From Bacteroidota bacterium (GTDB taxonomy: Bacteria > Bacteroidota > Bacteroidia > Chitinophagales > Chitinophagaceae): DNA of 37,249 nt. The DNA is taken from contig JAKQJG010000055.1 of assembly GCA_029561305.1 (NCBI GenBank), positions 1-37,249 on the forward strand, read 5' to 3'. The number at the start of each line of letters is the position of its first letter. The stretch's first letter is position 1. This document shows positions 29,605 to 36,687 of this stretch, one piece after another. Made by a program: the position numbers and the translations under genes. The notes under the pieces were generated by a model, which saw only the letters and a program-made list of their open reading frames with translations, was not told the DNA's origin and ran no database searches.

Positions 29605-30444
29605 TTATTTTTTTGGAGGGTTGAGCGATTTTTTATTTACTGTTTTTAACGCTTGTGCATTTTGTTGGCTTAGGATTTGTTTGCCGGTTTTGGCCTCGAT
29701 AGCTTTTCTGGTGTTGCCAGCAATATCACCGCCCTGCTTTGCAATTACTTTGTTTTCGTCAAAGTTTTTTGGTTTTTTCTCTTTGCTTATTTCTTTGGTG
29801 GATGCTTCAGCCAGCATATTCAGCACCAGTTCCAGGTTGGTCATATTGTCCCGGAGGTTTTCTTTCTTCAGGTTTTTATGCTGCTTGTATTCTTTTACTG
29901 TTTTGCCGCTCCATCCTTTTGTAATGATATCAGTTAACGTTGCAAACTCCTGGCCTTTCTTTACGCCACGTTCTTCCCACTCATCGGTCAGTTCCTTTCT
30001 TACTTCAATACTCTTTAGCCTTTGATTTATCCAGTTTTTGCTATAGCCGAGTTTCAGGTAATTTTCCATTGCCCTGTCAATGCTCAGCTCTGGGTTTTGC
30101 GATTCTTCTATTCTTTCGTAGCCGGTTTTAGCCAGCCATTGCTTAAAGGGCTCTGCTTTGGGCGAAGGGATGGATTGGATGAGGCGGAGCAAATCTTCTG
30201 TTTGTAAACAATCGGTGGCATACATTTTACCATCTGATGCCGTGAATTTCAGTTGTACGATTTTTTCGTACAACTGGCTTCCCTCTTTTATCAGTTTCTT
30301 TTTTAAATCTGTCCAGTAGCGTTTGGGTATGCTGCTTCCAGTCAAAATCTCTATCACATCAATTACTGAAAAATACCATTGCTCTTTTTCTGCATCCCAA
30401 TGACTGCGGATTTGTTTATGTTCAAAAAGTTTTATGTTGCTCAT
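29605..30444 (-). CDS. BRO-N/DinD-like phage-antirepressor-type protein
   Basis: A 279-residue protein. The N-terminal ~105 residues match the BRO-N domain: KIRSHWDAEKEQWYFSVIDVIEILTG-type sequence, IPKRYWTDLKKKL, MYATDCLQTEDLLRLIQSIPSPKAEPFKQWLAKTGYERIEE. The rest (residues ~110-279) resembles the DinD family: RLKSIEVRKELTDEWEERGVKKGQEFATLTDIITKGW, KKENLRDNMTNLELVLNMLAEASTKEIS, and a Lys-rich tail. DinD is SOS-induced in E. coli and interferes with RecA filaments; BRO proteins are often phage regulators. Either fits a defence or mobile-element role. It sits at the left edge of the AT-rich island and faces the dinD fragment at 30534 head to head. Confidence 0.85.
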   Translation of the reverse strand: MSNIKLFEHKQIRSHWDAEKEQWYFSVIDVIEILTGSSIPKRYWTDLKKKLIKEGSQLYEKIVQLKFTASDGKMYATDCLQTEDLLRLIQSIPSPKAEPFKQWLAKTGYERIEESQNPELSIDRAMENYLKLGYSKNWINQRLKSIEVRKELTDEWEERGVKKGQEFATLTDIITKGWSGKTVKEYKQHKNLKKENLRDNMTNLELVLNMLAEASTKEISKEKKPKNFDENKVIAKQGGDIAGNTRKAIEAKTGKQILSQQNAQALKTVNKKSLNPPKK

Positions 30445-30758: not shown

Positions 30759-31796
30759 TTATGAGTTAAGGTAATTTTTAATTCTTGCGACCGCAACATC
30801 AATAAATTTGGGATTGTTGAATAGTGTCTTTTTTCTGTCACTCCAATTTTCCAAATAGGCTGTAATTTCTTCGGTTGACTGCGCTTTGTTTTCAGTTATA
30901 ATAAAATCAATGGTAGATAGTAATTCTAAACCGAAAGAAGAGTAGAACCCAGAGAGAAAAGATTTTGTATTATTTGCAATGCTCTGATAAATTTTATTTT
31001 CAGGTTGTTGAAGATATTCTTTAACATCAGTTTCTCCGTCAGGTATAATTCCCAATTCTTCAAAAGGCTTTTTATCTTTTGAACTGTATCCGGAAATATA
31101 ACTGCCATTCAAATAGTAAAGCACATGCTTCACTTTGCCGGAGTAAGGTCCGTAAAAGTTTGGCTTATACTCTAGATTAAAAATCTCTTTTGCGCCAAAA
31201 CGCTGAAGAAAATAAGCGATTTTTTCTGCTGCAAATTCGGAAACAAACTCACCGTTTTTTACAAGGTCATAAAGGGTATCCAACAGCATTGCCCTGGCTG
31301 GTGTAAGTTTTGCCCTTTCTTTTTTTAAGACTTCCTGAATCTCGGGAGTTGGCTCGTAAATGTAGATTTCGCTGTTAACTTTAGAAAGGTGTTTTTCAAG
31401 TATTTGTTTTACCTGAATCCAGTTAAGCCCGCCGTTACCAGCGCCAAGGGGTGGAAGTGCTATGGATGTAATATTTTTTTCTTTAATAATTTCCATAAGA
31501 TTCTTTAATCCCTCTTCTATGTAACTATACTCAGATGGTTTACGCCAATCCGTTTTAGTTGGAAAATTGATTATTATTTTTTCACCTGTGTGTAAAGAGG
31601 AATCTTTTGTAACAAGGAGTTTTCCAATGCCGATTGTTCCTTCCTTGCAGGCTTTTATATACTGCCTAGTATTTTCAGGAAACTGTTGTTTAAACTGTAG
31701 AGCAACACCCTTACCCATTACACCAATAGTGTTTACGGTATTCACCAAAGCCATAGCCTTGCTGTCAAGTAAATTCCCTTTGATGTAATGAATCAT
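30759..31796 (-). CDS. darG: DarG antitoxin (macrodomain DNA ADP-ribosylglycohydrolase)
   Basis: A 345-residue protein. Residues 1-~155 are a macrodomain: GNLLDSKAMALVNTVNTIGVMGKGVALQFKQQFP and PPLGAGNGGLNW are the ADP-ribose-binding loops, with TKTDWRKPSEY between. Residues ~165-345 are the DarG C-terminal domain (TPARAMLLDTLYDLVKNGEFVSEFAAEKIAYFLQRFGAKEIFNLEYKPNFYGPYSG). It removes the ADP-ribose that DarT puts on thymidine in DNA and can also bind DarT. It starts three bases after the DarT stop (TGA then ATG), so the pair is one operon with toxin first. Length and both domains match full DarG. Confidence 0.95.
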   Translation of the reverse strand: MIHYIKGNLLDSKAMALVNTVNTIGVMGKGVALQFKQQFPENTRQYIKACKEGTIGIGKLLVTKDSSLHTGEKIIINFPTKTDWRKPSEYSYIEEGLKNLMEIIKEKNITSIALPPLGAGNGGLNWIQVKQILEKHLSKVNSEIYIYEPTPEIQEVLKKERAKLTPARAMLLDTLYDLVKNGEFVSEFAAEKIAYFLQRFGAKEIFNLEYKPNFYGPYSGKVKHVLYYLNGSYISGYSSKDKKPFEELGIIPDGETDVKEYLQQPENKIYQSIANNTKSFLSGFYSSFGLELLSTIDFIITENKAQSTEEITAYLENWSDRKKTLFNNPKFIDVAVARIKNYLNS

Positions 31797-31799
31797 GGG

Positions 31800-32426
31800 T
31801 CAAAAATAATATTCAGGTTTTATAATCAGTTTTTTATTTTGAAATCCCTGCATCTGTTGTATTTCCTGCTCTGCTACAGCATTATAAACAACAAATCCTA
31901 AGACAGCATCTGTTGGTATATCTCCAGACACAAGAAATTCAGCCTCCTTTCTTCGCTTTAAATCAAGGTCGTTTTCGTCATTCCAGTATTTTCGCTGTAT
32001 AGCTTTCCTGTCTATTAAATTTTCAATATTCAATCTATCAGCAGGAGTATAGAAATTTGTAAAAACGTCTATTGCATGTCCATCGCTAAATACATAATCC
32101 AGCCCTTGTTGTTCAATTGCTTCTACTGAAGAGACACAATAAACAATATCTTTTGCAGATGTTGCCAGTACTCCATTAAAGCCCTTTTGTATTACATAGA
32201 GCATTGGCATCCTTGCATCAAAATAAAAGGGAATATAACTGCCGAGCATTCTGTCATTGGGCAATAAGAATGTATCTCTTACGCTAATTAAACTGCTATC
32301 TCCAATGGAAACATAAGCTGGGTTTCGGTTGGGAGAACTAATATGAGTAATGCCATGTTGCAAAATATGTGGGATATTTTGCAGGTGCGTCATGCGGAAG
32401 AGTAGTATTTTATTGTTCTCTGGCAC
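31800..32426 (-). CDS. darT: DarT DNA ADP-ribosyltransferase toxin
   Basis: A 208-residue toxin of the DarT family (DUF4433), which attaches ADP-ribose to thymidine in single-stranded DNA and blocks phage replication. NAD-site residues are H14 in RMTHLQNIPHILQHGITH and R50 in SLISVRDTF; YFDARMPMLYVI follows. The catalytic Glu is most likely E163 in RRKEAEFLV. The start is GTG 32426 (MPENNKILLFRMTH); an internal ATG at codon 12 would lose residues near the NAD-binding site. It is 68 bases downstream of the ImmA/IrrE gene on the same strand and three bases upstream of darG. No truncation is visible, so it should be active. Confidence 0.94.
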   Translation of the reverse strand: MPENNKILLFRMTHLQNIPHILQHGITHISSPNRNPAYVSIGDSSLISVRDTFLLPNDRMLGSYIPFYFDARMPMLYVIQKGFNGVLATSAKDIVYCVSSVEAIEQQGLDYVFSDGHAIDVFTNFYTPADRLNIENLIDRKAIQRKYWNDENDLDLKRRKEAEFLVSGDIPTDAVLGFVVYNAVAEQEIQQMQGFQNKKLIIKPEYYF

Positions 32427-32494: not shown

Positions 32495-33301
32495 TTAATC
32501 TTCCCAAATAATACTCAAAATAGTTTTGTATCTCTTTGTGGGAATACAATACTCATAAAAGTCTGTATCCTCTGTATCATTTTCGTTCAGATTGAACCAA
32601 GTAGATTTATTTATTCCCTGTGCTTTTTCTTCCATTGTATAAACAAAAGCATAATCTTTTTGAATATACTCCATGGCAACTGAATCTGTTGGCGGTGCAA
32701 GTCGGGCATAGTCGCCAAGCCAAACATTTAATCTGTCTGATTTTTTCCAATACTTAACTCTGCCATTCTCAACAAACACAATACAAATCGGGTGAAGGTC
32801 TGATTGTAAATACTTTAAAACTGTTGCTGTTAAACTTGCCTTGAATCTTTCTGCAAGCTGCTTTATAAGAAGAGGAGAAAACTTTTTTCCCTTTGCCTCC
32901 TTCATAAACAATTTTTCAGGCATCAAAAGTTCGCTTGCAAATTCGTTCGCTTCTAATTCCTGTGTTCCATTCTTCAGTATCTTTTCCATCCCTGAAATGA
33001 TATTAAAGTTTGAAAAAATATCGTCCGGTAGTTTCATTCCTTTGTGCATTATCAAATGCCCGATTTCATGTGCTGCAACAAATCGTTTTCTTTCTAGAAA
33101 TTGAATTTGTGAGTTTACTTTAATAACCGCTTTGGTCTCACCAAAAATTATTTTACCATCGCAATGTTTTAGTTCTTCTTCAATAAGCATAGCATCAAGT
33201 CCGGCAACAAATAAATCCATCGGGAAATCTGTGATTTCGTCTAAACCACAATCTGCCAACAGTTTTTGTGCTTGTATATGAGCATTAGTGCTTCTTTTCA
33301 T
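32495..33301 (-). CDS. ImmA/IrrE-family metallopeptidase
   Basis: A 268-residue protein. Zinc site HEIGH (H78, E79, H82) in RFVAAHEIGHLIMHKG; the third ligand is probably E117 in QELEANEFASELLMP. These are the family hallmarks. ImmA, IrrE/PprI and CapP proteins cut repressors when DNA is damaged or phage DNA appears. The C-terminal half (about residues 130-268) holds FKASLTATVLKYLQ, then beta-rich sequence resembling a sensor domain. Its gene overlaps the small charged-protein gene upstream by 17 bases and precedes darT by 68 bases. A repressor target is missing from the immediate operon; the small protein or the sigma-like factor are the obvious candidates. Confidence 0.93.
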   Translation of the reverse strand: MKRSTNAHIQAQKLLADCGLDEITDFPMDLFVAGLDAMLIEEELKHCDGKIIFGETKAVIKVNSQIQFLERKRFVAAHEIGHLIMHKGMKLPDDIFSNFNIISGMEKILKNGTQELEANEFASELLMPEKLFMKEAKGKKFSPLLIKQLAERFKASLTATVLKYLQSDLHPICIVFVENGRVKYWKKSDRLNVWLGDYARLAPPTDSVAMEYIQKDYAFVYTMEEKAQGINKSTWFNLNENDTEDTDFYEYCIPTKRYKTILSIIWED

Positions 33302-33680
33302 TTTCGTCTAATTGCTCTAAAAGTTGAACAAGATTTTTGTCCTTAATGATTTCAATAATTTCCTCTTTAGAAAGTTTGTCAAGATTGCGATGCAAAGCAA
33401 GTGAAGTGTTTCCTTGAATGAGTTGTTTGAGAATCGCAATTGGCTTTTCAATACTTAATTGAAGTGCTTGCTCAAATTTTTCTGCAAGTGCAAGTAAATA
33501 TTCGTTGTGTTTTTTCTTTGCTGTTGCCTTCGCTAAAAAGATGATTTGCTTTTTCTTCTTTTCATATTCAGCCATATCTTGAATATCACTTTTCAGTGAA
33601 TCCTTTATTGTGTCTTTGTCGGCTTCCAAATAGAAGTTGAACAAAGCTTCGTCGATTTTGTCTTTGATTTCTTTGTTCAT
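33285..33680 (-). CDS. Small charged helical protein between sigma-like and ImmA/IrrE genes
   Basis: A 131-residue protein, unusually rich in Lys and Glu, predicted almost all helical (EALFNFYLEADKDTIKDSLK, YEKKKKQIIFLAKATAKKKH, LSKEEIIEIIKDKNLVQLLEQLD). Residues ~40-80 could form a coiled coil. I recognise no family. The gene overlaps both neighbours: ATGA with the sigma-like gene and 17 bases with the ImmA/IrrE gene. Such coupling suggests a ternary set. It could be an anti-sigma or protease-substrate protein; that is inference, with no motif to prove it. Confidence 0.8.
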   Translation of the reverse strand: MNKEIKDKIDEALFNFYLEADKDTIKDSLKSDIQDMAEYEKKKKQIIFLAKATAKKKHNEYLLALAEKFEQALQLSIEKPIAILKQLIQGNTSLALHRNLDKLSKEEIIEIIKDKNLVQLLEQLDENEKKH

Positions 33681-34201
33681 ATGATAGTGATTGCTTGAGT
33701 TTTAATCTTTTCTCTTTTGCGTTCAAGCCGCTTTATGATTACATAAACCTCTTTTACATCAATTCCTAAATCTTTTGCAATATCTGCTGGCTTGAAAATT
33801 CCATCCATCCAATATTCAAAAACCGTAAGCTCATCATCGTCTGAGCCTGCTTTTTTAAATAGTTCAGAAGCTTCTTTTCTTTTTTCCTCTATGTTGATTA
33901 AGGTTTCGTTTACTATAAGCTCGGGAAAATCGTTTGAATGATTATTTTTCATCGTTGTGAAAAAATTGGAGATATCGCTTTTTAGACATCCGAAAAGAAA
34001 CAACCGAAATGAACATGCTGAACTATCCCAATTTCTGGTTCCTTCCATTACCTTTAAAATGATGTCCCCTACAAAGTCAACAGGGGATTTGCCGTTGAAG
34101 GTTTTTTCTCCAACAGACTTTAAACGGGATATGGCATAGGCATTCATTCTGTCTATGACCTCATCCATATCCTCGGACCGTATTGTTTCGGCAAGATTCA
34201 T
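33677..34201 (-). CDS. Sigma-70-like factor of the CBASS-flanking module
   Basis: A 174-residue sigma-like protein. Residues ~15-95 resemble region 2 (ISRLKSVGEKTFNGKSPVDFVGDIILKVMEG, CSFRLFLFGCLKSDISNFFTTMKN). Residues ~125-165 resemble region 4 with a helix-turn-helix (FEYWMDGIFKPADIAKDLGIDVKEVYVIIKRLERKREKIK). The regions are joined by a charged linker (EEKRKEASELFKKAGSDDDEL). It is small and divergent, so it may be an ECF-like activator. It is the first gene of a minus-strand group that continues through the charged protein, ImmA/IrrE, darT and darG, and it diverges from CBASS across a 170-base gap containing a large dyad. Confidence 0.8.
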   Translation of the reverse strand: MNLAETIRSEDMDEVIDRMNAYAISRLKSVGEKTFNGKSPVDFVGDIILKVMEGTRNWDSSACSFRLFLFGCLKSDISNFFTTMKNNHSNDFPELIVNETLINIEEKRKEASELFKKAGSDDDELTVFEYWMDGIFKPADIAKDLGIDVKEVYVIIKRLERKREKIKTQAITII

Positions 34202-34218: not shown

Positions 34219-34279
34219 TATGCTAAGGTCTGAAAAATATTTGCCACTCAATGGCAAATATAATTAGATTCTTAGCATA
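34219..34279. promoter_or_regulatory. 61-bp nested symmetric dyad between the sigma module and CBASS
   Basis: Outer arms TATGCTAAG (34219-34227) and CTTAGCATA (34271-34279) are perfect inverted repeats. Inner arms ATATTTGCCA (34237-34246) and TGGCAAATAT (34252-34261) form a second perfect repeat around CTCAA. The gap between outer and inner arms is 9 bases on each side, so the whole is exactly symmetric. On the minus strand the inner right arm also reads TATATTTG, a perfect -7 box for the sigma-like gene (leader about 45 bases). It could be a multi-site operator or an RNA hairpin. The symmetry makes chance unlikely. Confidence 0.75.
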
Positions 34280-34371: not shown

Positions 34372-35004
34372 ATGAGTTTCAAATATTACAAAATCACACC
34401 GCTTATTATTTCAATCATTGTCCTCTCGGGCTTGATTGATTACTGTGTTGGCGAATGGATAAACCCTTTACTGGTTCAATATCTGTCTAAAGGAAGTCAT
34501 TTCAGAGTGCCGACTACTGTGAGCATTCTTGGAATGTTTTTTCTTCTCTACAATCAGGTGCTTTGGAAATTGCCTGTTTTCAATCTATTGATGGCTGTTC
34601 CCAATATGGCTGGTAGATATGAGGGAAACGTAAAGTTCAAATGGAACGGTGTGGACGGTGAAAAGCCCTGCTTCATTGAGGTTGTGCAAACTGCTTCCAA
34701 AATAAAGGTGCATACTTATTTCAGTGATGGAGCAAATGAGAAAACATCTTCAAAAAGTTTAATAGAGGATATTAAGCAAGATGAAGATGGGTTCTTTGAT
34801 ATTTATCTATTCTACCTGAACGGCGGCACAAAGCAAAACGGCGGTTTGGATTGCCACGAAGGGGCAAATAAACTTCGCTTTCACCCAGGTAAAGATGGGA
34901 GCAGTAACAGTTTAATGGGGCATTACTTTACGAATCGCCAAATGCAAACAAGGGGTGAAATTGAAGGCACTCTTATTTCAAATCACCTTCAAGGCAAATT
35001 TTAA
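34372..35004 (+). CDS. cap15: Cap15-type CBASS effector, two-helix membrane anchor plus beta-barrel
   Basis: A 210-residue protein. Two membrane helices (about residues 9-26 and 47-66) are followed by a soluble beta-rich domain from ~residue 80: GRYEGNVKFKWNG, CFIEVVQTASKIKVHTYFSD, GFFDIYLFYLNGGTKQNG, GHYFTNRQMQTRGEIEGTLI. This matches Cap15, whose minimal barrel binds a cyclic nucleotide and drives assembly in the inner membrane, disrupting it and killing the infected cell. It is ten bases upstream of the CD-NTase. The nucleotide specificity is unknown. Homology is judged from architecture and motifs rather than alignment. Confidence 0.88.
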   Translation: MSFKYYKITPLIISIIVLSGLIDYCVGEWINPLLVQYLSKGSHFRVPTTVSILGMFFLLYNQVLWKLPVFNLLMAVPNMAGRYEGNVKFKWNGVDGEKPCFIEVVQTASKIKVHTYFSDGANEKTSSKSLIEDIKQDEDGFFDIYLFYLNGGTKQNGGLDCHEGANKLRFHPGKDGSSNSLMGHYFTNRQMQTRGEIEGTLISNHLQGKF

Positions 35005-35014
35005 TTTAGTAATT

Positions 35015-36013
35015 ATGGCAAATTGCAACGAACATTTTGAAAAGTATAACGGTGAAATCAGATTGACTGATGCCCGTAGAAAAAAGTTGAAGGGTTCAAG
35101 AAAAGAACTCCGCAACAAAGTTAGAAAGTGGTTTAAAGAAAATAAGCCCAATGAAACTCAACCAAAGTTTAGTGGTCAGGGTTCAATGTCAATGGACACA
35201 ATCATAAATCCTATCCCACGAAAGGTGATGGAAGAAAAGGCGGAAGTAAGTAAACTTTATTATGATGTTGATGACGGAATTTATTTTGAAGGAGATAAAA
35301 GTGTTGCTGACAGACCAACACCTACAACATATCACAACTGGGTTTATGAAGCGGTGAAGGGTCATACTAATACGGACCCGATTGATAAAAACACTTGCGT
35401 AAGAACGCTGTTTGCAGATGGTCATAATATTGACCAGCCGATTTATTACAAGAAAGGAAACATTCCTGAACTGGCTCATAAAAAGAATGGCTACATTGAT
35501 AGCGACCCAAAAGCATTTACAGAATGGTTCAATGATAAAGCAGAAACGGAGCCACAGCTTAGGGACTTGACGAGATTTGGAAAAGGGTGGTGCGATAAAA
35601 GAGATTTTGAAAATGAAAGCAAGCCAATGCCTACCGGTTTAATCATTACCATTCTGATAGCTGAAAATGCTGTTTACAGAAAAGACAGGGATGATATTGC
35701 CCTAAAAGAAACGCTTGTTAATATTGAATCAGTCCTAAAAAATAATTTTGCTTGCTATCGACCTACAACTCCAAAAGGCGAAAACCTCTTAAAGGATTAT
35801 GCTCATAAAGATTATTTTATGAAATGTCTTTTTGATTTTATTGAAGATGCCAAAAAAGCACTGGAGGAAATAAATATTCGTAAGGCAACTGAATTGTGGC
35901 GTAAACATTTAAGCAATAGATTTCCTTTAGGTGAGGACAAAAATGAAGCTTCAAATTCTTCTGCTGGTTTGGCTGCAATGATACCACCAACTACAAAGCC
36001 ATACGCCCAATAA
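35015..36013 (+). CDS. DncV-like CD-NTase (cyclic-oligonucleotide synthase) of CBASS
   Basis: A 332-residue enzyme that makes a cyclic-nucleotide alarm on infection. The nucleotidyltransferase core has GQGSMSMDTIINP (GS motif at residues 56-57), the metal-binding YDVDDGIYF (D84, D86) and a third acidic residue D140 in HNIDQPIYY. These are the three carboxylates of the family. Its N-terminal helices (EKYNGEIRLTDARRKKLKGS) and C-terminal helices are normal. The clade and product cannot be told by eye. The C-terminus is PPTTKPYAQ, not Gly. The frame is open from 34955 within cap15, but ATG 35015 is correct. It overlaps the E2-like gene by one base (TAATG). Confidence 0.93.
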   Translation: MANCNEHFEKYNGEIRLTDARRKKLKGSRKELRNKVRKWFKENKPNETQPKFSGQGSMSMDTIINPIPRKVMEEKAEVSKLYYDVDDGIYFEGDKSVADRPTPTTYHNWVYEAVKGHTNTDPIDKNTCVRTLFADGHNIDQPIYYKKGNIPELAHKKNGYIDSDPKAFTEWFNDKAETEPQLRDLTRFGKGWCDKRDFENESKPMPTGLIITILIAENAVYRKDRDDIALKETLVNIESVLKNNFACYRPTTPKGENLLKDYAHKDYFMKCLFDFIEDAKKALEEINIRKATELWRKHLSNRFPLGEDKNEASNSSAGLAAMIPPTTKPYAQ

Positions 36014-36687
36014 TGAAGAATGAAAAATTTGAGGAAGATATTATATCCATTCCAGAAATATTCAATAAGCTAAGCATTGTGGAACTGGATGGAGAAAAAA
36101 TCCTTAAAGGCGAATTGGATATTATTGATACTACTGGCAAACCTTGGGATACTTATCAAATAGAAATTAAAGGCAGCGATGGCTATCCTTATTCTTTCCC
36201 AAAACTTTTTGAAACTGCAAATGCTTTTCCAAAAATTCTTGATTGGCATGTTTATGAGTTTAATGATAAATCTTGTTGTGTTGATGTAACTCCTAACGAA
36301 TTAATTATTTGTAAAAGCGGCTTGAATATAATTGATTATATAGAACGCTTCGTTATTCCATACTTTGCCAATCAATCTTTTAGAATTCGAGAGGGCTATT
36401 ATTTATATGGCGAATATGCCCATGGGATTTTTGGAAGAATTCAATTTTATCAAAGTAAACTAAGAGCTAAAAATCCGAATGAACTTCTTAGAATGTTTTA
36501 CTTAATAGTAAATGACTATAACCCTGAAAGAACTGCATTTTGCCCGTTTTGTTCAAAAACAAAATTTCGGAAATGCCATAAAGCTGCTTTTGCGGAACTT
36601 TCAATAATAAAGGATTTTCTTTATTGGGATGGCTCAAAACAGCTTATTCCATTTTTCACTGCTAATCCAGATTACAAATTGCCCTAA
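36013..36687 (+). CDS. E2-like protein of CBASS (stand-alone, with zinc knuckle)
   Basis: A 224-residue protein. The first ~120 residues resemble a ubiquitin-conjugating (E2/UBC) fold: GSDGYPYSFPKLFE mirrors the family's YPxxPP loop, and ILDWHVYEFNDKSCCVDV provides H79 and a catalytic-type Cys (C88 or C89). A C-terminal segment has CPFCSKTKFRKCH (C177, C180, C188, H189), a SEC-C-like zinc knuckle. There is no E1 or JAB gene nearby. Type II short CBASS carries only an E2, which processes or attaches the CD-NTase tail. It overlaps the CD-NTase by one base. E2 assignment is by motif and context. Confidence 0.82.
   Translation: MKNEKFEEDIISIPEIFNKLSIVELDGEKILKGELDIIDTTGKPWDTYQIEIKGSDGYPYSFPKLFETANAFPKILDWHVYEFNDKSCCVDVTPNELIICKSGLNIIDYIERFVIPYFANQSFRIREGYYLYGEYAHGIFGRIQFYQSKLRAKNPNELLRMFYLIVNDYNPERTAFCPFCSKTKFRKCHKAAFAELSIIKDFLYWDGSKQLIPFFTANPDYKLP

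Follow-up and report, generated by a model that had tools for sequence, protein, structure and literature searches.

A remote ECF-type sigma factor, a small helical protein and a CapP-family protease as a candidate control cassette of divergent immune operons

What would a sigma-like gene do at the promoter of a CBASS operon, in one operon with a small protein and a protease of the kind that elsewhere removes a repressor? The question is raised by the window, which is the whole stretch of 37,249 nucleotides analysed here (contig JAKQJG010000055.1 of assembly GCA_029561305.1, from a Chitinophagaceae member of the Bacteroidota). The controllers of immune operons named in the available part of PMC13373217 (CapW/BrxR, CapH+CapP and CapK+CapS) are damage-responsive and act by loss of repression. 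A preliminary description of the window, made from its letters, proposed instead that the protease cuts the small protein, an anti-sigma, and frees the sigma to switch on CBASS. Features of the window are collected in Table 1.

Table 1. Positions of the triad, the promoter-like elements and the adjoining genes in the window.
Feature	Position	Strand	Details
Divergent ECF-type sigma factor, sigma2 + sigma4	33677..34201	-	174 aa
Small all-helical protein, proposed anti-sigma and CapP substrate	33285..33680	-	131 aa
CapP-family HExxH metallopeptidase	32495..33301	-	268 aa
Promoter-like element toward sigma operon	34219..34246	-	TGGCAA-N16-AGCATA, 17 nt before sigma ATG
Promoter-like element toward cap15	34252..34279	+	TGGCAA-N16-AGCATA, 92 nt before cap15 ATG
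Cap15, 2TM CBASS effector	34372..35004	+	Pfam PF18153 E 4.7e-12; PADLOC 2TM Effector E 1.1e-29
CD-NTase, CBASS cGAMP synthase family	35012..36013	+	NF041078 215.1 bits, cut-off 150
CBASS E2-like protein	36013..36687	+	PADLOC E2 E 9e-60
DarT toxin gene	31800..32426	-	NF048013 189.8 bits, cut-off 150
DarG antitoxin gene	30759..31796	-	NF048014 393.9 bits, cut-off 250

The gene layout was checked by open reading frames and database models and held throughout: on the minus strand the sigma and small-protein genes have the ATGA at 33677-33680 in common, the small-protein and protease genes overlap by 17 bases (33285-33301), and the triad is divergent from cap15, CD-NTase and E2 genes on the plus strand (Pfam, NCBIfam, PADLOC), so that a CD-NTase and a Cap effector are both present in the neighbouring operon. 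Absent from the preliminary description were the mirrored promoter-like elements in the intergenic region between sigma and cap15, and the DarT/DarG genes, which start 68 bp downstream of the protease gene on the same strand, so that a toxin-antitoxin pair may belong to the sigma operon as well; among the neighbours of triad loci DarTG was not seen to recur as a cluster. Beyond DarG, on the same strand, lies a gene for a Bro-N protein (29605-30444; PADLOC candidate PDC-S13, E 4.2e-132). The reported absence of an Xre repressor agreed with a search of the window's genome by the PADLOC capH model, which gave no match at E≤1e-7 (this scope being the capH model, with only part of the window's genes scanned for HTH domains). 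The same model matched neither the sigma nor the small protein at E≤0.1, and no CapH was thus found beside the CapP.

The protease carries the intact HEIGH motif ascribed to it and was assigned more precisely to the CapP family. It matches PADLOC capP model PDLC04141 (E 2.5e-62, residues 8-268), its family profile (A3) matches the solved CapP 7t5t (E 1.7e-29, profile positions 37-259), and both the HExxH metallopeptidase and the CapP C-terminal part are present; HExGH is kept in 30 of 30 triad CapPs examined. For the CapP of CapH+CapP, activation by single-stranded DNA is reported in the available part of PMC13373217. Viral contigs searched with the CapP query gave 60 loci, mostly weak ImmA matches, two of them with a distant sigma-like open reading frame, and were set aside.

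The sigma-like identity of the first gene was upheld in the form of a distant relationship. As a single sequence the window protein matches NCBIfam TIGR02937 with 30.8 bits (E 1.9e-7), under the model cut-off of 42.9, and its family profile (A5) aligns to SigH (PDB 5zx2) at E 1e-5 across both regions 2 and 4. The two domains expected of an ECF sigma, sigma2 and sigma4, are therefore present by the SigH alignment, the single-sequence TIGR02937 match being sub-cut-off. The ten best Foldseek matches of its AlphaFold model (pLDDT 88) were all sigma factors, mostly ECF, at E 0.018-0.13 with none below 0.001. Judged by these comparisons, the product of 33677-34201 is a remote ECF-type sigma factor. 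The best match of the sigma profile by score, 8vd6 'CAP REPEAT' (E 9e-13), repeats the HTH stretch only and was discarded. Viral contigs searched with the sigma query gave 8 pattern matches, none of which was confirmed, and among plasmids none carrying the sigma was found.

Conservation of the triad was surveyed by profile. With the small-protein profile alone, 18 of 395 phylum genomes (16 genera) were matched; the sigma adjoins the small protein in all 18 and CapP in 17, one of them frameshifted. The window sigma was matched in 10 of the 395 genomes, seven of which (window included) have an adjacent CapP, again with one frameshifted. Among the matches listed, sigma, small protein and CapP occur together mostly in Bacteroidota, and lower-scoring triads occur in Planctomycetota, Verrucomicrobiota, Burkholderiales, Deltaproteobacteria, Colwellia and others. 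From a search of named genomes with CapP came 80 loci among at least 145 confirmed. The working set comprised 50 non-redundant loci, 45 of them with 2 kb of upstream sequence, after removal of the duplicates L045 (of L013), L191 (of L032) and L047 (of L218) and of the spurious L065. By profile, 47 of the 50 carry the small protein or a fused half of it (weakly in L046 and L056; not in L042, L049 and L052), L226 is without CapP, and the CapP of L017 is frameshifted. A sigma lies at most 1.3 kb upstream of 46 of 50 full-length CapP-like proteins, a set biased by having been gathered with the CapPs of sigma-linked loci; the four exceptions are L224 (sigma farther away), L043 (small protein only), and L044 and L063 (contig edges). 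In a search independent of the triad profiles, the PADLOC capP model gave matches in 65 of 345 phylum genomes at E≤1e-15. Among the 30 capP loci listed, 13 are triads by profile, 11 belong by eye to a second sigma/small/CapP type (type 2), four are XRE+CapP, and two (L236, L253) show neither arrangement.

The shared intergenic region of the window contains TGGCAA-N16-AGCATA in both directions, 12 of 12 letters each, as a pair of two 6+6-base arms with 16-base spacers that measures 61 bp in all. A facing pair with at least 9 of 12 letters of the window pattern was found in 14 of 40 other loci (shuffled sets: mean 0.025, maximum 1). Across 41 loci, the centre being fixed by the inner arms alone, the outer arms scored a symmetry of 0.456 against 0.272 (s.d. 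0.022) in shuffles. A sequence-free mirror test at spacer 16 gave p≤0.05 in 22 of 50 loci and p≤0.01 in 11, and was not significant in 28, including the Bacteroidota loci L025, L028, L035 and L038; among the loci found later by the small-protein profile, p≤0.05 was reached in 2 of 10 (L217, L223). Four loci (L014, L016, L017, L040) show the same geometry in other letters, both arms being identical. In the 4.83-Mb genome there are three exact matches, two of which are the window pair, and with one mismatch allowed there are 58, compared with 27 for the reversed control pattern, so weaker sites elsewhere in the genome are possible. The -10-like box ends 5-12 nt before the called sigma ATG in some loci, which is short for a leader. 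Comparison of elements between loci was abandoned on account of register shifts. Type-2 modules gave 0 of 10 at p≤0.05, and the promoter argument is therefore restricted to type 1.

Such a mirrored element is what one sigma serving both its own and the divergent operon would need, and we rate this service of both promoters as likely, more so than the full chain of events proposed below. Alternatively, the nested inverted repeat may serve as an operator: the sigma-like protein, with or without the small protein, would then be a repressor, and cleavage of the complex by CapP would derepress both operons as with CapH. The element is indeed palindromic overall, compact palindromes were seen by eye in some type-2 modules (L227, L229), and the Cap controllers described in the available part of PMC13373217 are repressor systems. 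Arms of 6+6 bases with a 16-base spacer, over a length of 61 bp, look like a pair of divergent promoters, however, and the SigH-aligned sigma2 region, which a repressor would not need, is kept. With no second DNA-binding protein recognised in the triad either, we consider a repressor unlikely and favour a sigma that reads the element outwards on both sides.

What would hold that sigma in check? For the small protein no confident family match was obtained in Pfam, NCBIfam, PADLOC or profile searches; the family names offered for it were at chance level, and the PDB matches of its profile (designed helical proteins, a lysozyme entry) were rejected as effects of composition. The single-chain structure model is all-helical and of low confidence (pLDDT 69.8, pTM 0.37), and Foldseek of this model against the PDB gave no meaningful match. 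Distance matrices of 30 loci correlate at 0.82 for small protein and sigma, 0.76 for small protein and CapP, and 0.64 for sigma and CapP. In partial correlations of corrected distances over the same number of loci, small protein and sigma given CapP remain at 0.47-0.66 and small protein and CapP given sigma at 0.54-0.58, and the link of sigma and CapP vanishes once the small protein is controlled for (-0.10 to 0.004). In these correlations the small protein takes the middle position, with sigma and CapP on either side.

The two halves of the small protein could be considered separately. The N-half without the C-half heads an ImmA-type protease in L195 and an SNF2 helicase in L015; these were the only two fused proteins found and both stand directly behind a sigma of the window's family; the N-half is thus associated with the sigma. 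The L195 protein (L195:9818-11452) consists by eye of the N-half, the ImmA-type protease and a macro-like tail, and is divergent from multiubiquitin/E1 genes. The C-half profile was compared with CapH, 4 of 12 sequences scoring above the 99% shuffle level and 6 of 12 above the 95% level. In a second comparison 4.5 bits were reached by 4 of 8 CapP-linked open reading frames (4 of 6 once the type-2 small proteins L259 and L278 were removed) and by 3 of 15 unlinked ones, of which one scorer, L261, is a CapH ahead of a stop-broken CapP and some of the 15 are by eye not XRE; the two comparisons are not independent, since L257, L258 and L262 repeat L235, L256 and L255. Against type-2 small proteins the C-half profile gave no signal (0 of 10). 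The likeness to the CapH tail is weak and hints at a common substrate tail for CapP, nothing beyond that.

Gene order, element and distance correlations would fit equally well if the small protein were a co-factor of the sigma and CapP, by cutting the sigma or this co-factor, shut the immune operon off (attenuation). CapP is the inducer in CapH+CapP, however, and so is PprI in Deinococcus (available parts of PMC13373217 and PMC10904395, respectively), and the tail of the small protein weakly resembles that of CapH, a known substrate; attenuation is for these reasons judged quite improbable, and the small protein is treated below as a putative anti-sigma.

Whether the triad is tied to its neighbour was examined on the divergent side. 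The preliminary description would have counted as refuted if the triad were not kept beside defence operons, and the profile survey found it kept: with the window included, the divergent strand carries CBASS, Pycsar, Bil, ubiquitin-like E1/JAB or Qat genes in 25 of 50 loci, which places the triad at the promoter of an immune operon. CBASS is divergent from the triad in the window and in L024, L032, L042, L051, L196 and L220; Pycsar with E2 in L023 (named by PADLOC) and in L025, L031, L034 and L037 (by similarity); Bil in L020 (named) and L029 (similarity); E1/JAB with or without ubiquitin-like genes in L013, L014, L033, L219 and L221 (named) and L016, L039, L046, L049 and L195 (similarity); and Qat in L193. 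Immune seeds were found on the downstream side of 0 of 50 triad loci and, beside generic ImmA genes, in 2 of 40 and 1 of 40 on the two sides, a comparison that favours the claim because the seeds were drawn from the upstream side of triads.

Opposite the other 25 of the 50 triads no immune core gene was recognised (20 of the 45 evaluable ones, and five with too little upstream sequence); these triads face Tn7-like transposition genes, a family of 413-416 aa, DUF2188/DUF1508 genes or nothing recognised. Tn7-like genes stand directly divergent from the triad in L035 (TnsA) and L217 (TnsB and TniB). The 413-416 aa family is divergent from three triads (L012:7349-8599, L022:6625-7872, L026:6466-7707) and is a candidate immune gene; its L022 copy had no Pfam or PADLOC match and its L026 copy one sub-threshold Pfam match only. 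A family of 227-254 aa (MAEL/MAQL...GK...GDxxFRQRNGKN) was seen by eye divergent in L218, L222, L224, L225 and L226, and its L222 copy had no match in Pfam or PADLOC.

CapH+CapP occupy the corresponding place on seven plasmid records, at 111-341 bp from the next divergent gene, which belongs to multiubiquitin/ThiF operons in four records (one behind two other small genes), to nucleotidyltransferase operons in two and to DUF2188+patatin in one. As operon types and layout agree with those of the triads, the sigma and small protein look like an exchange part for CapH. The loci without a recognised core gene (the upstream sequence being too short in five), the general clustering of defence genes and the DarTG pair downstream in the window would suit a stress or toxin-antitoxin cassette that is complete in itself and resides in defence islands without control of its neighbour. 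That the seed-found immune core genes lie on the divergent side and strand, that a second copy of the element points toward the divergent gene and that CapH+CapP take the same place on plasmids all argue against it, and such a cassette is considered very improbable; control of the divergent operon is the reading retained.

The type-2 modules (L227-L230, L233, L234, L237, L246, L248, L249 and L252) carry another ECF-type sigma, which matches TIGR02937 in 10 of 10 tested cases (E 1e-3 to 3e-18, four above the cut-off), and a small protein that differs from that of type 1, is present in 10 of the 11 loci (none in L249) and often ends in a motif like MAARNGNDIPKHILDKMKR. The type-2 small protein at L228:1131-1487 matches PADLOC capH at E 2.2e-13 and has no HTH by eye, the capH model also matches at the type-2 small-protein positions of L227, L229, L230, L234 and L237, and that of L248 gave no PADLOC match; it thus looks as if the capH model lumps together two sorts of CapP partner. 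A Cap15-like gene is divergent in L227, and ubiquitin-like genes were seen by eye in L228, L229 and L233; short compact palindromes were noted upstream of L227 and L229. Taken more widely, CapP may be a general DNA-damage cutter with exchangeable outputs, which would cut CapH in one line and, in at least two others, unlike small inhibitors, freeing an ECF-type sigma for CBASS, Pycsar, Bil, ubiquitin-like or Qat operons with positive feedback; we give this generalisation a little better than an even chance.

For the window itself the following scheme is proposed, in which the triad would be the controller cassette of the divergent immune operon. While the cell rests, the sigma would be bound by the small protein and kept off RNA polymerase. 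DNA damage or infection would produce single-stranded DNA and so activate CapP, by analogy with CapH+CapP, and CapP would cut the small protein, the probable site being the 'FRNLxxLS' tail at its C-terminus. The freed sigma would recognise TGGCAA-N16-AGCATA, and as it would read the element in both directions, its own operon and cap15-CD-NTase-E2 would both be raised, with possible read-through into DarTG. CBASS would thus be turned on by release of an activator with positive feedback, as opposed to removal of a repressor in CapH+CapP. The full chain, from cleavage of a small anti-sigma by damage-triggered CapP to transcription of CBASS and of the sigma operon by the freed sigma, is derived from sequence comparisons and considered reasonably probable. 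The sigma-release interpretation of the preliminary description is in this sense partly supported: conservation, element and the bridging position of the small protein were upheld, and we infer binding, cleavage, use of the element by the sigma and the single-stranded DNA trigger.

On the wider reading, bacterial immune operons would possess local sigma factors dedicated to them. If the scheme for the window is true, release of a sigma by proteolysis would add an activator to the known controllers that work by loss of repression, and would hint at how abortive systems stay silent and then switch on steeply. TGGCAA-N16-AGCATA is a directly testable promoter candidate, and the triad together with the mirrored element could lead to immune operons missed by searches with known genes, given the 20 of 45 triads without a recognised core gene.

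In ECF sigma/anti-sigma pairs such as those of RseA and RsiW, regulated proteolysis of the inhibitor frees the sigma, which is autoregulated. The proposed scheme resembles these pairs in the cut inhibitor, the autoregulation and the sigma2-sigma4 layout; it differs in that the protease is of the CapP/ImmA type with no membrane protease cascade in the cassette, and in that the small protein matches no known family. In ImmA-ImmR, an HExxH protease of the same superfamily as CapP induces genes after DNA damage, and its substrate is a repressor. IrrE/PprI-DdrO is likewise a system in which an HExxH protease of the superfamily induces genes after DNA damage, the substrate there too being a repressor (available part of PMC10904395). 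CapK+CapS and CapW/BrxR, as described in the available part of PMC13373217, are like the triad controllers beside diverse immune operons and have YegP (DUF1508) among their neighbours too; they share a response to DNA damage that is predicted for the triad, and, unlike the triad, have neither sigma nor protease, CapK+CapS being a kinase with a STAS-wHTH repressor and CapW/BrxR a WYL repressor. No sigma partner of CapP is named in that part of PMC13373217, and no sigma/CapP module is described in the titles and abstract openings found, a search that left most subscription literature outside. Closest to the triad are CapH+CapP, which share with it a CapP-family protease, the same place, similar spacing and the same kinds of divergent operon; in the triad no HTH repressor was recognised, its place being taken by a helical small protein together with an ECF-type sigma, and activation in place of derepression is predicted.
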